In this document: in pieces, positions 12,953 to 23,051 of the stretch | How the letters are laid out: each line of letters opens with the position of its first letter | How positions within the stretch are numbered: position 1 is the first letter of the stretch | NCBI RefSeq assembly: GCF_001006305.1 | Contig: NZ_LBHJ01000012.1 | Coordinates: 470,231 to 534,230 of the forward strand | Length of the DNA stretch: 64,000 nt | Direction: 5' to 3' | Source: Silvibacterium bohemicum | GTDB taxonomy: Bacteria > Acidobacteriota > Terriglobia > Terriglobales > Acidobacteriaceae | Position numbers and translations under genes: made by a program | Notes under the pieces: generated by a model | What the model was told of the DNA's origin: nothing | The model's database searches: none | Seen by the model: only the letters and a program-made list of their open reading frames with translations

Positions 12953-13023
12953 CAGGGTTCAGGGATTAGGTTGTAGGGCACAGAGAATTCAGGTTTTCTA
13001 CGCCCTGTACCCTACCCCCTGCT
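12953..13023 (+). repeat. Inverted heptad arrays in the rpmG-trnW spacer
   Basis: On the left are period-7 units CAGGGTT, CAGGGAT, TAGGTTG, TAGGGCA and CAGAGAA (12953-12987). On the right are CCCTGTA, CCCTACC and CCCTGCT (13003-13023), whose complements have the same NNAGGG pattern. The two arrays can pair in a long imperfect stem just before tRNA-Trp. Confidence 0.7.
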
Positions 13024-13028
13024 GTTAC

Positions 13029-13104
13029 AGGGGCGTAAGCTCAACGGTTAAACTGTCGGTCTCCAAAACCGAACTTCTCGGTTCGAATCCGAGCGCCCCT
13101 GCCA
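13029..13104 (+). tRNA. tRNA-Trp (anticodon CCA)
   Basis: The acceptor AGGGGCG pairs with CGCCCCT (13094-13100). The anticodon loop TCTCCAAA region gives anticodon CCA, the T arm is CTCGGTTCGAATCCGAG, and CCA is encoded at 13102-13104. It sits between rpmG and secE as in many bacteria. Confidence 0.96.
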
Positions 13105-13213
13105 GATTTTTGAACCAGGCAACATGCGGTATCGTAGGTAGGATCAGAATCGAAGAAGTAGAGAGTGGTTCCCCGCCGCTCTGACCAGGAAAAAGCTGGG
13201 CAAAGAAGGGTTT

Positions 13214-18416: not shown

Positions 18417-21400
18417 ATGTCCAACGAGAACCGCGCCCTTCGTAGCCGTCTCGACTTTTCCAAAATCCCTACATCGATTCAGATCCCTAACCTCATTGAA
18501 GTTCAGCGCCGCTCCTACGAACGCTTTCTGCAGATGGACAAGCTGCCCTCGGAGCGTGAAGACAACGGCCTCCAGTCCGTCTTCACCTCTGTCTTTCCCA
18601 TCACCGATTTTCGTAACATCTCGCAGCTTGATTTCGTTGATTACTCCATCGGCAACTGGGAGTGCAAGTGCGGACACCTCAAGGGTCTTCACCACCTTCG
18701 TACCGCCTGCGTTAATTGCGGCAACATGGTCATCACCGATCCGTTCCATCCCGGCGATGTTCTCTGCTCGAAGTGCGGCACCTACAACAAGAACACGCCC
18801 GACTTCTGCAACAAGTGCGGCGACCCTGTAGGTCTGCAGCTCAAGTACGACCAGGCTGAGTGCGAAGAGCGCGGCATGACCTATTCCGCTCCGCTCAAGG
18901 TGACGGTGCGCCTCACCATTTACGACAAGGACCCCGAGACCGGCGCCAAGTCGATTCGCGACATCAAGGAGCAGGAAGTCTTCTTCGGCGACATTCCGCT
19001 GATGACGCAGAACGGCACCTTCATCGTGAACGGCACCGAGCGCGTGATCGTTTCGCAGCTCCACCGTTCCCCCGGCGTCTTCTTCGAAACCGCGAACAAC
19101 CGCACTTACTTCCTGGGCAAGATCATTCCCTACCGCGGATCGTGGGTGGAGTTCGAGTACGACCAGAAGAACACTCTCTATGTCCGCATCGATCGCAAGC
19201 GCAAGTTCCTCGGCACCATCTTCCTGCGCGCCCTCGGTCTGAAGGCCGACGACGAGATCCTCAAGACCTTCTATACCGTCGACAAGATCAACGTGAAGGA
19301 AGGCAAGCTTCACTGGACCATCGACGAGAAGGCCGAGAAGACGACGCACCTGCTGGGTGCGAAGCCCGCGCACGCCGTTGTTCACAAGGGTGAGGAGATT
19401 GCTCACTCCGGCCGCAAGGTTTCCCCTTCGATCCTCAAGGCGCTTCGCAACGCGAAGATCTCCGAGGTCGAGATCGAAACCACCGAGCTGGATGGAGCGG
19501 TCACTGCTTCCGACGTCATCGACACCACGACCGGCGAAGTCTTCATGGAAGCCAACCAGGAGCTCACCGCCGACAAGCTGCACAAGATCATCGAGAGCGG
19601 CGTCACCTCCATCGAGGTCTTCTTCCCCGAGCGCGACGATGTGGGCAACATCATCACCAACACCCTTCGCCGCGACTCCGTGCGCAAGCCGGAAGAGGCG
19701 CTGATCGAGATCTACCGCAAGCTGCGTCCGGGCGATCCACCGACCCTGGACACCGCGACTGCGCTCTTCGAGGGCATGTTCTTCGATCCGCGTAAGTACG
19801 ACTTCTCGCGCGTGGGCCGTCTCAAGTTCAACATCAAGCTTTACGAGAACCAGGACAACTCGCCCCTCGATCGCCGCACGCTGACGCCTGAGGACTTCTA
19901 CGACACCATCCGCTACCTGCTCAAGCTGCGCAAGAACATCGGCGTCGTCGACGACATCGATCACCTTGGCAACCGCCGCGTTCGCGCGGTCGGCGAGCTG
20001 ATGGAGAACCAGTTCCGCATCGGTCTCGTCCGCATGGAGCGCGCCATCAAGGAAAAGATGAGCGTGTACCAGGAGATGTCGACGGCCATGCCGCACGACC
20101 TCATCAACGCCAAGCCGGTTATGGCCGCGATCAGGGAGTTCTTCGGTTCTTCGCAGCTCTCGCAGTTCATGGATCAGACCAACCCCCTTTCGGAGATCAC
20201 GCACAAGCGCCGTCTCTCCGCACTTGGGCCGGGCGGTCTGTCTCGCGAACGCGCTGGATTCGAAGTCCGCGACGTGCACCCTACGCACTACGGCCGCATC
20301 TGCCCGATTGAGACGCCGGAAGGTCCGAACATCGGCCTCATCAGCTCGCTCTCGTGCTTCGCGCGCATCAACGAGTATGGCTTCATCGAGTCGCCTTACC
20401 GCCGCGTCGCGGGTGCTCGCGTGCTCGACTACGTACAGGTCACCAACGCCGGCGAAAGCGGTCTGCGTGTGGGCGATCACCTCGAGAAGTCCGAGTCGCG
20501 GAAGCTCAACGAGCAATTGAGCAAGGACAAGAAGCGTCTCATCGAGGTCGATCCGTTCTCCTTCTATCTTTCCGCGTGGGAAGAGGATCGTCACACCATC
20601 GCGCAGGCCAACATCGAGCTCGATGGCGAGGGCAACATCACCGAAGAGCTGGTGAATGCCCGCCGTCAGGGAAACTTCGTCCTCGTCGATCGTGGTGAAG
20701 TCGATTACGTCGACGTCAGCCCCAAGCAGCTTGTGTCTGTCGCCGCTTCGCTCGTTCCTTTCCTCGAGCATGACGATGCGAACCGCGCACTGATGGGCGC
20801 CAACATGCAACGCCAGTCGGTTCCGCTTCTTGTTTCCGAAGCGCCACTGGTTGGCACCGGCATGGAAGGCGTCACCGCACGCGACTCGGGCGCTGTCATT
20901 CTGGCCCGCCGCAACGGTGTCGTCGATTCGGTCGACTCCGAGCGCATCATCATCCGCGTAGAAGGCGAGCATCACCCCACGCAGCTGTCGCGTGAGGTCG
21001 GTTCCGACATCTACCAGCTCATCAAGTTCAAGCGGTCGAACCAGAACACCTGCATCAACCAGAAGCCTATCGTTCGCCACGGCGATCGTGTGGTCAAGGG
21101 GCAGGTGATCGCGGACGGTCCTTGCACCGAGCAGGGCGAGCTTGGCCTGGGACGCAACGTCCTGGTCGCCTTCATGCCCTGGCGCGGTTACAACTTCGAG
21201 GACGCGATCCTCATCTCCGAAAAGCTCGTGCGCGAGGACTATTACACGTCCGTGCACATCGAGGAGTTCGAGATTGAAGCTCGCGACACCAAGCTGGGGC
21301 CGGAAGAAATCACCCGCGACATCCCCAACGTCAGCGAGCATGCGCTGCGCGATCTCGACGAGAGCGGAGTCATCCGCATCGGCGCCAAGATCAAGCACAA

Positions 21401-22901
21401 CGACATCCTCGTCGGTAAGGTAACTCCGAAGGGCGAGACGCAGTTGACGCCTGAAGAAAAGCTGCTTCGCGCCATCTTCGGCGAGAAGGCCGGCGATGTT
21501 CGCGATGCCTCGCTCACCTGCCCTCCCGGAATCGAAGGCACGGTCGTCGACGTCCGCATCTTCTCCCGCAAGGGACAGGAGAAGGACGAGCGCGCCAAGC
21601 TGATCGAAGCCGAGCAGGTTGCGCAGCTCGAGAAGAACCTCGCCGACGAGATTCGGATTCTCACCGACGAGCGCCTCAAGCGCCTCGAAGGCATTCTGGG
21701 CGGCAAGACGGTCCTGGCCGATCTCCACGACGAGCGCACCAACAAGCGCCTGCTCGTGAAGGACGCCATCCTGGACCGCGATGCCATCGAGCGCATCTCG
21801 ACCAAGAACCTCAAGCGCATCCGCTACAACGACAAGGATCCGCGCGTGAACGAGCAGATCGACGAGATCGAAGAGATGACCTCGCGCCAGATCGACGTTC
21901 TCCGCAAGATCACCAACGAGAAGATCGCGAAGCTGCAGAAGGGCGACGAACTTGCTCCCGGCGTTATCAAGCTGGTCAAGGTCTACATCGCCATGAAGCG
22001 CAAGCTGTCGGTCGGCGACAAGATGGCCGGACGCCACGGTAACAAGGGCGTCATCGCGCGCATCCTGCCCGAGGAAGACATGCCGTATCTGCCCGATGGA
22101 ACGCCGGTTGAAATCGTCCTCAACCCGCTCGGCGTGCCTTCGCGTATGAACGTCGGTCAGATCCTCGAAACGCATCTCGGATGGGCGGCGCACGAACTCG
22201 GCAAGACCATTGCCGGAATCGTGAAGACCAACCAGGATGCCAACACCATCCGCGAGATCTTCAAGGAGAAGTTCGTGGGAACTGCTGCCCTGCGCCAATT
22301 GCTCGAGCTCGACGACACGCAGGTGGTGCGCGTCGGCCTCGGCATGGAGCGTGGCATCTGGTTCGGCACCGCGGTCTTCGACGGCGCGCGGGAGACGGAG
22401 ATCAAGGCGCTGCTTGCAGCGGCCGGACTTCCCAGCTCAGGCAAGACGCACCTCTTCGACGGCATGACCGGCGATCAGTTCGAGCAGCCGGTAACGGTTG
22501 GTTACATCTACATGCTCAAGCTGTCGCACCTGGTCGACGACAAGATCCATGCCCGGTCTATCGGACCGTACTCGCTTATCACCCAGCAGCCGCTGGGCGG
22601 CAAGGCGCAGTTCGGCGGACAGCGCTTCGGAGAAATGGAAGTCTGGGCCCTGGAAGCATACGGCGCAGCTTACATTCTTCAAGAGCTGCTCACCGCGAAG
22701 TCCGACGACGTTTACGGCCGCACCAAGATCTACGAGGCCATCGTCAAGGGCGAGGCGGCGATCGAACCCGGCGTGCCGGAGTCGTTCAACGTGCTCATTC
22801 GCGAGCTGCAGTCGCTCTGCCTGGATGTCGAGCTGATCAAGATGACCCCCGCAGGCGAGCCTAAGAAGCTTCCGCTTCCGACACTGGCCGCCGCCGATTA
22901 G
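18417..22901 (+). CDS. rpoB: DNA-directed RNA polymerase beta subunit
   Basis: 1494 aa, longer than the E. coli protein (1342), as usual for acidobacteria. The N-terminal region carries a cysteine cluster ([20 protein letters not shown], then [19 protein letters not shown] at about residues 82-142) that looks like a zinc ribbon insertion absent from E. coli. The rifampicin region is [32 protein letters not shown], and [44 protein letters not shown] and the clamp C-terminus are intact. Its stop codon lies inside the first heptad of the rpoB-rpoC spacer. Confidence 0.98.
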
Positions 22902-23051
22902 GGATTAGCGATTAGCCATCAGGGATTAGCAAATCTCTGATGGCTATCGCCGACCGAAGATTGATTCAAGACGGCGCCGAAATTTACGCCGCCAGCAAAG
23001 AACAAGAGCAACCGCAGCTAATCGCTAATGGCTCATCCCTAAGCGCTATCT
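22896..23051 (+). repeat. Inverted heptad arrays filling the rpoB-rpoC spacer
   Basis: Left (22896-22930): GATTAGG, GATTAGC, GATTAGC, CATCAGG, GATTAGC, the first overlapping the rpoB stop. Right (23017-23051): GCTAATC, GCTAATG, GCTCATC, CCTAAGC, GCTATCT, i.e. the complement of the left units in matching order. A local hairpin (22915-22927 with 22932-22944, loop AGCA) also forms. The right array ends just before the AAGGAGG of rpoC. Confidence 0.85.

Follow-up and report, generated by a model that had tools for sequence, protein, structure and literature searches.

Stop-anchored period-7 repeat arrays in the ribosomal protein and RNA polymerase operon spacers of Acidobacteriota

The STRR heptamers of cyanobacteria are perfect tandem heptamers with a few fixed units. 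Degenerate heptamers with the consensus GGGNATC have been described in Xanthomonas and Nostoc, where quadruplex formation was proposed and the function was left open (Rehm et al. 2015, PMC4692102). These repeats lie on the sense strand less than 50 bp from stop codons and on the antisense strand less than 50 bp from starts, adjoin genes of all functional classes, form 70 (Xcc) and 75 (Xac) convergent inverted pairs with few in Nostoc, and are mostly transcribed in Xac (PMC4692102). In marine Beggiatoaceae, TAACTGA heptamer direct repeats stand immediately upstream of start codons, and regulator binding has been proposed for them (MacGregor 2015, PMC4679880), while in the P6b stem of the Nostoc tRNA-Leu intron degenerate heptanucleotide repeats of variable copy number pair into a hairpin (PMC3488679). 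Here we describe period-7 arrays in the spacers of the ribosomal protein and RNA polymerase operon of Silvibacterium bohemicum and other Acidobacteriota. The starting point was a 64,000-nt stretch of its 6.46 Mb genome (assembly GCF_001006305.1, contig NZ_LBHJ01000012.1, positions 470,231 to 534,230), called the window below and numbered from its first letter.

Like the GGGNATC repeats, the Acidobacteriota arrays are degenerate, intergenic, of period 7 and placed mostly between aligned genes, more rarely in divergent spacers; they too run in the sense orientation near stops and antisense near starts (PMC4692102). They differ in that the GGGNATC repeats have one G-rich unit per lineage, whereas the units found here are many and mostly devoid of G-tracts, the arms tend to share their unit spacer by spacer, and the arrays are concentrated in ribosomal operons (PMC4692102). 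A layout known from the GGGNATC repeats is here extended to units without G-tracts. The TAACTGA repeats resemble the present case in their position near start codons and in the over-representation of translation genes, ribosomal operons included, and differ in being one fixed heptamer (PMC4679880); the P6b repeats, unlike these gene-spacer arrays, form a single intron stem (PMC3488679). The original prediction had linked the arrays to heptameric repeats, a link that is supported, the GGGNATC heptamers being the nearest published kind; its remark that no description was known fails for the kind itself, since the position and orientation rule is in print, and stands for the Acidobacteriota case, which we did not find in print (PMC4692102). 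A word search of the text of that paper returned no mention of Acidobacteria, and among open-licence PMC papers we found neither an Acidobacteriota occurrence of such arrays nor their unit independence or their concentration in ribosomal operons.

The autocorrelation of each operon spacer of the window at lags 4–21 was compared with 1000 dinucleotide shuffles. Genes carry the names we take them to have from their proteins, those of L10, RpoB and Uma2 being confirmed by Pfam. Lag 7 exceeded the shuffles in rpmG-trnW (z 4.0), rplA-rplJ (z 3.8), rpoB-rpoC (z 4.2) and nusG-rplK (z 3.3), and in all four it was the top lag, with a fainter echo at 14. The entire rplL-rpoB spacer reached z 1.9 (p 0.03), and its first 73 nt, picked after inspection of the sequence, z 2.7 (p 0.006). 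No significant lag-7 signal was present in trnW-secE (z 0.4), Uma2-rplA (z 1.5, p 0.08) or rplJ-rplL (z 0.1); in tuf-rpmG the top lag was 15 (z 4.1) and lag 7 was absent. Tandem Repeats Finder reported 5.1 copies of period 7 at the rpoB stop (22895-22930). The periodicity of 7 in the operon spacers of the window is thus real, and the shuffled controls did not refute it as the original prediction had allowed they might. Its count of at least four spacers stands if nusG-rplK is taken as the fourth and rplL-rpoB as a short stop-proximal hairpin. Its claim that the period is kept holds in the window operon save after tuf and is not universal, period-8 and period-15 arrays occurring in like places.

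For the arms, the first 42% of each stretch was paired with the last 42% and the duplex compared with shuffles. End-to-end pairing was better than shuffled in rplA-rplJ (0 of 1000 shuffles as good), rpmG-trnW (p 0.004) and after rplL (p 0.025), and not significantly so in nusG-rplK (p 0.093). Predicted folding energy lay below the shuffles in rplA-rplJ (z -4.0), rpoB-rpoC (-3.2), rpmG-trnW (-3.1) and the rplL hairpin (first 73 nt, minimum free energy z -4.3), and not in nusG-rplK (z 0.0). The 5' array of rpoB-rpoC mostly forms a local hairpin in the predicted fold, and both arms still hold inverted copies of one unit. The predicted inversion therefore holds by the duplex comparison in three of the five spacers (rplA-rplJ, rpmG-trnW and after rplL), while in the other two, rpoB-rpoC and nusG-rplK, complementarity is not significantly greater than in shuffled sequence; the suggested folding of the spacers gave energies below shuffles in four of them, nusG-rplK being the exception. 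As had also been proposed, the arrays abut stop and start codons and even supply ribosome sites: the rpoB stop lies within an array, and the last unit before rplJ, AGAGGCT, is Shine-Dalgarno-like.

The relatives comprised 80 Acidobacteriota rpoC loci, each with at most 10 kb of flanking sequence, whose spacers were cut by tblastn of the window proteins, the window itself being included in the sets. Close RpoC sequences belong to Acidobacteriaceae: a metagenome-assembled genome at 96% identity, and Silvibacterium, Paracidobacterium and Acidipila records at 94–95%. The loci vary in length, so that some spacers fall outside the visible range; being related and orthologous, they do not give independent data for sums of z or for Fisher tests (L079 and L080 have an identical rpoB-rpoC spacer; L and G numbers denote loci and genomes). 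Outside the rpoC operon, genes were predicted with a codon-usage caller that makes visible errors, such as spacers of 2–3 kb. A search that made no assumption on the unit found 40 stop-side and 34 start-side lag-7 arrays in 577 co-directional spacers, with an array on one side in 32 of the 80 genomes. Control lags of 4, 5, 6, 9, 10, 11 and 13 gave 0–3 stop-side arrays and lag 8 gave 13. The arrays are anchored: 32 of the 40 begin no more than 7 nt from the stop codon (median 4 nt). At convergent stop sides 7 of 170 carried a lag-7 array, and at divergent start sides 1 of 164.

The arrays are concentrated in ribosomal protein and RNA polymerase operons. In line with the predicted operon focus, 38 of the 40 stop-side arrays follow genes of the tuf-rpoC operon, which contributes 317 co-directional spacers against 260 outside it (Fisher p 1e-8); rpoB-rpoC is the richest spacer, with 13 of the 40. 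The stop-side lag-7 match rate of the relatives is 0.327 inside the rpoC operon and 0.274 outside. Lag 7 was the strongest lag over 78 rpoB-rpoC spacers (13 above z 3, summed z 10.0) and over 56 rplA-rplJ spacers (18 above z 3, summed z 10.9), the window included in both, sums that are overstated because the sequences are related. The predicted anatomy of arrays at both ends of spacers is thus present, with a sharper rule: arrays begin at the stop codon, read outward from genes and are rarely divergent, which is also the case in the rest of this genome and in the other genomes below. They lie where genes follow one another, with some between convergent genes.

A start at the stop codon might also reflect stop codons themselves, YAG units with a period coprime to three placing stops in every frame. 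TAG is 6.3-fold enriched in the stop-side arrays over the spacer background, and 72 stops compare with 41 in mononucleotide shuffles. Dinucleotide shuffles, however, give 67.7 ± 2.6 (with a laxer cut-off, 89 stops against 82.3 ± 2.7), stops on the antisense strand are commoner (89 and 114), all three frames are covered in only 13 of the 40 arrays, and many units contain CAG. With counts so little above dinucleotide shuffles we set this explanation aside as improbable in the extreme.

The unit itself changes between spacers, as predicted, and between genomes. At L077 it is GGGACTA in rplA-rplJ and TAGCTTC in rpoB-rpoC, at L045 CAGTGGT and TAGCTTC, respectively, and at L086 GAGTACC in rpoB-rpoC. 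The comparison with related strains that had been suggested shows arrays recurring with different units at one and the same spacer. This diversity bears on whether the arrays are G-quadruplex elements of the Xanthomonas and Nostoc type, in which four G-tracts per array would form DNA or RNA quadruplexes. Three G-tracts or more occur in only 4 of the 40 stop-side arrays and GGG is absent from 33, so that quadruplexes cannot explain the layout generally, and TAGC, CAGT and GTAC units share that layout. The AGGG family of the S. bohemicum genome does carry quadruplex-capable G-tracts, resembles the GGGNATC motif and obeys its positional rule (PMC4692102). We consider quadruplexes very unlikely, and as a general cause they are ruled out by the G-tract counts.

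Within a spacer, both arms tend to belong to a single unit family, but no significant co-variation of individual variants emerged. Over 34 two-armed spacers the arm match averaged 13.3 within the own spacer and 4.3 between different spacers of a genome (the own spacer scoring higher in 19 of 24 comparisons), and 4.9 against the same spacer in other genomes (398 comparisons). Strong matches between stop-side and start-side arrays across genomes were mostly inverted (179 against 49 of 1391 comparisons). The duplex with the own partner surpassed that with foreign partners in rpoB-rpoC (n=73) and rplA-rplJ (n=32; non-overlapping arms were used in short spacers), with a permutation p of 1e-4 for each. 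The gain resided in the array species, defined by a lag-7 z above 2.5, against a z of up to 1 for non-array species, values between being left out: mean -12.5 kcal/mol in 15 rpoB-rpoC and -16.8 kcal/mol in 19 rplA-rplJ spacers with arrays, and -1.7 (38 rpoB-rpoC) and +0.8 kcal/mol (11 rplA-rplJ) in those without.

A stop-proximal hairpin is usual in the rpoB-rpoC spacer whatever its sequence make-up. Over 78 spacers the first 60 nt after the rpoB stop folded far below shuffles (mean z -3.11, 52 below -2), and nt 31–90 did not (mean z -0.10, 4 below -2). Folding was comparably low over 41 spacers without period 7 (mean z -3.10, with 29 below -2) and over the 15 that have it (mean z -3.88, 11 below -2). 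Because array-free spacers fold there too, the arrays would seem to be one means of forming a hairpin that is kept after rpoB. Such stable predicted stems next to stop codons could be attenuators or processing sites, which would end part of the transcripts or be cut by RNase III and so set the dosage of ribosomal proteins against polymerase. E. coli has an attenuator at the position that matches the rplL-rpoB hairpin, which speaks for this explanation. Yet, where an intrinsic terminator has a U-tract behind its hairpin, most AGGG elements had no T-run after the 3' arm when inspected by eye, no scan having been run (L001 and L003 are exceptions), and rpoB and rpoC are needed in equal amounts, whereas their spacer is the one richest in arrays. 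An attenuating or processing role seems unlikely.

In the S. bohemicum genome as a whole, AGGGNNNAGGGNNNAGGG occurs 111 times and the reversed pattern twice; AGCTNNN three times in a row gave 10 matches, which are 5 places read on both strands. As to a likeness with the cyanobacterial STRR heptamers, some genomes have pure arrays (TAGCGGG in G028), while those of this genome are mostly degenerate; the AGGG search pattern itself requires three G-tracts. Among 54 AGGG arrays in fetched stretches, with positions taken from the first 100 of the 111 places, 32 stand downstream of a same-strand gene, at most 7 nt from its stop codon in 24 cases and at most 18 nt in 31, and 12 of these 32 sit between convergent genes. 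The remainder are 17 reversed arrays between co-directional genes, 1 divergent, 2 within called genes and 2 at edges. Of the upstream genes of the 38 elements with both neighbours called, 20 were run through Pfam: RpoA, L18 and an S30AE protein are among them, and the rest belong to metabolism, transport, regulation or modification or are of unknown kind.

AGGG elements often begin GCAGGG and end CCCTGC, and some spacers have one side only. The recurrent ends would suit mobile palindromic elements, of the kind of repetitive extragenic palindromes (REPs) or miniature inverted-repeat transposable elements, inserted at the 3' ends of genes. REPs likewise adjoin gene 3' ends, are probably transcribed, form hairpins, lie mostly in unidirectional or convergent and not divergent spacers, and in the GTAG families often supply a TAG stop (PMC3733652). 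They differ in having a palindrome of 20–40 bp with a GTAG/CGTC tag and no heptad array, the GTAG families being linked to REP-associated tyrosine transposases (PMC3733652). In the present elements no common palindrome or constant inner sequence was apparent by eye, no systematic motif, homology or transposase search having been made; units vary between spacers of one genome, and in some orthologous spacers the inner part appeared by eye to be kept while the arms changed. Insertion of mobile elements is improbable as the origin of the arrays.

Period 7 is not pervasive in the genome. Over all sampled intergenic sequence the lag-7 match rate was 0.2597 against 0.2539 (z 5.7), like lags 5, 6, 15 and 18; this overall excess is small and the effect is therefore confined to a minority of spacers. 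Near the stops of sampled co-directional spacers lag 7 was hardly raised (0.27). Of the nine sampled spacers above z 3 at lag 7, three lie in the window operon (hypergeometric p 0.002). In 30 stretches chosen blind to arrays, one was present in 7 of 196 co-directional and 3 of 52 convergent spacers, and in none of the 73 divergent ones. In the ribosomal operons of this genome the figure was 8 of 30 spacers (p 1.3e-4; window 3 of 8, second operon 5 of 22), which is biased upward since the second operon was chosen for holding arrays and the window is the place of discovery; lags 5, 6, 8, 9 and 10 gave 0 of 30. The second-operon arrays adjoin rpoA, L17, S4, S11, L18 and S5 (Pfam).

Other genomes gave a similar picture. 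A search with rpsE matched 38 of 40 family genomes, and in the 30 loci used, the own one included, lag-7 arrays occurred in 23 of 122 co-directional spacers and in 11 loci, with control lags giving 1–3; 12 of 18 stop-side arrays began within 10 nt of the stop, and L270 had arrays in four spacers. The pattern searches that follow give positions among the first matches listed per genome. Of 16 arrays in G131, a genome of the same genus, 10 come after a gene on their own strand, and in 9 of these cases the distance to its stop is at most 10 nt; the rest are 3 reversed between co-directional genes, 2 called divergent and 1 at an edge. Genomes G080, G028 and G027 (loci of the last assigned by order in the list) together yielded 17 TAGC arrays. 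Nine come after same-strand genes, 6 of these within 12 nt and three at distances of 23, 46 and 1218 nt, of which the largest probably reflects an error in gene calling. A further 4 are reversed between co-directional genes, 1 lies in a called gene, 3 are at edges and none is divergent. In G080 the forward array was on the left in 17 of 17 neighbouring opposite-strand pairs up to 500 bp apart (by eye). The fixed patterns are patchy, TAGC being found in 60 of 198 phylum genomes and AGGG in 42 of 80 family genomes. They say little for several genomes, G098, G115 and G171 among them, because there the reversed control is near-equal or commoner (TAGC: none against 136 and 131 in G098, 35 and 52 against 59 and 78 in G115; AGGG: 12 and 23 against 12 and 21 in G171).

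Three features point to RNA, namely strict anchoring at the stop codon, scarcity between divergent genes and a hairpin that recurs, and a layout kept while the unit changes suggests that the folded mRNA matters rather than a particular sequence. Quite possibly, transcribed stems fold the untranslated gap from the stop codon to the next ribosome site, their units being renewed by slippage. The arms would pair in the mRNA, leaving little RNA single-stranded between a ribosome that terminates and the site where the next gene is initiated. Were pairing kept and not sequence, units would be free to drift and be replaced; replication slippage of seven bases may supply new ones, and copying from arm to arm, by template switching in an imperfect hairpin, might hold both arms in one family. 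In the window the last pre-rplJ unit is predicted to be paired (0.81) with the 25 nt that directly follow the rplA stop, and in five genomes (L020, L078, L022, the window and L023) so is a TAGAGG rplJ site (0.71–1.0); the value at L018 is 0.51, at a doubtful site. From this predicted pairing, a ribosome ending at rplA would open rplJ in those five genomes, a form of translational coupling.

Several results weigh against such a role for folding. For the rplJ Shine-Dalgarno site, predicted pairing with the stop-proximal 25 nt is 0.5 or more in no more than 6 of 19 array species, the other 13 being at or below 0.21, and that of the rpoC site is at most 0.04 throughout 15 array species, with none at 0.5. 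The long-range duplex of rpoB-rpoC in the window is not better than shuffles (p 0.172). No arm coupling was seen in rplJ-rplL (n=58, p 0.83) or nusG-rplK (n=16, p 0.68), the rplA-rplJ spacer of species without arrays shows no closing stem, and single-armed arrays occur on either side. Shuffling the order of units revealed no register-specific pairing in 15 rpoB-rpoC (Fisher p 0.5) or 9 rplA-rplJ spacers (p 0.85), nor in 13 AGGG elements of the own genome (p 0.19, L166 alone being clear with p 0.002), and the pooled value over 39 elements was not significant (z 1.85). Among 319 sampled spacers of the own genome, 9 exceeded z 3 at lag 7, 12 at lag 15 and 7 at lag 6. Arrays between convergent genes need a separate reason. 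A parallel unit order seen by eye in L246 was also considered and is unsupported over the 39 elements (z 0.71).

A rival account is neutral slippage: heptads would arise often and survive in transcribed non-coding gaps away from promoters, where they do no harm, inversion being a useless by-product of template switching. An earlier survey, as cited, places heptanucleotides as the top repeat category in most genomes, with the contact length of the polymerase proposed as the cause (PMC4679880, PMC4692102). The differing units of the same spacer in related species, the lack of detected register-specific pairing and the patchy spread, with a reversed control sometimes as common, all agree with it. 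Tolerance alone, however, does not predict that most arrays start so close to the stop, and neither the orientation rule, nor the ribosomal-operon concentration, nor the hairpins at the same place in array-free species are expected from it. We regard neutral slippage as possible, though rather doubtful.

Returning to folded gaps, we tentatively propose in wider terms an RNA architecture that is lineage-wide and independent of the unit: the gaps of ribosomal and polymerase operons may be closed by rapidly replaced stems that couple or insulate neighbouring genes. No particular sequence would be required, and selection would act only on complementarity anchored at the stop. On this view the repeats of Xanthomonas and Nostoc would be one G-rich case of the architecture and not quadruplex elements. 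Here the position and orientation rule comes with many G-tract-free units, and the spacers, being orthologous, allow comparison over dozens of species. The role of heptamer repeats becomes a matter of comparison, in which the gene pair is fixed, the unit is varied by nature and one asks what stays constant: the stop-codon anchor and, as a tendency, the unit common to both arms. There is a warning in this as well: from one related species to another, a large part of a spacer in a core operon can be replaced.

Table 1. Repeat arrays and the tRNA gene among the operon spacers of the window
Feature	Position	Strand	Evidence
Stop-side array after rpmG, unit YAGGGKN	12952..12983	+	Spacer lag-7 z 4.0; arm duplex p 0.004
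Inverted partner array CCCTNNN before tRNA-Trp	13002..13023	+	Lag-7 and duplex tests
tRNA-Trp	13029-13104
Stop-side degenerate array after nusG	14109..14158	+	Lag-7 segment 14119-14158; spacer z 3.3; duplex not significant
Start-side array, AGCTAGA type, before rplK	14272..14304	+	Lag-7 segment 14286-14303
Stop-side array after rplA, unit NNNYAGC	16390..16422	+	Spacer lag-7 and duplex tests
Start-side inverted array before rplJ	16484..16517	+	Segment score 16; duplex below all 1000 shuffles
Short stop-side array after rplL, AGGG type, hairpin 5' arm	17591..17616	+	First 73 nt z 2.7
rplL hairpin 3' arm, CCCTNNN	17633..17648	+	Duplex test
Array holding rpoB stop codon, unit GATTAGC	22896..22930	+	Segment score 15; spacer z 4.2
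Inverted array GCTAATC before rpoC Shine-Dalgarno site	23017..23048	+	Segment score 11; duplex p 0.17
Single-armed period-15 array after tuf	12501..12670	+	Lag-15 z 4.1; like place, other period

The features of the window are collected in Table 1. A search for the exact AGCTAGA pattern gave no matches, and Rfam covariance models over positions 11000-28500 returned only tRNA-Trp and one match below the gathering score. The period-15 array after tuf has a unit of about GCGGTTAGCTTAAAG, and its family, with inverted arms, recurs at L002:5953-6269, at L006:2818-3130 and in further spacers. Another period-15 tandem repeat, ACGGCGACGAGCACA, lies at window positions 30413-30491. Period-8 stop-side arrays, mostly of TAATT/GATTT octads, occur in the tuf-rpoC operon of L062, L073, L079, L080 and L082, and a long pure AGGGCTC array at G131:C1:1667596-1667725 is a likely product of slippage.

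Just before the rpoC ribosome site, GCTCTC-like and GAGAGC-like stretches could pair, as judged by eye, into a possible pseudoknot in the rpoB-rpoC spacers of L076, L079, L084-L086, L092, L093 and L095-L097, with matching variants in L082, L088, L089 and L090. An exact-pattern search for a CCCACATCTCG...GAGATGTGGG palindrome with a 7-nt loop gave no matches; a dispersed REP-like palindrome around these sequences was seen in L002, L004, L006, L107 and other sampled spacers. In the window, three near-identical 82-bp tandem copies (98% match) stand beside tRNA-Thr at 10390-10637, and a Uma2-family gene (PF05685, E 3.7e-30) lies at 14786-15481 between rplK and rplA, within the ribosomal operon.

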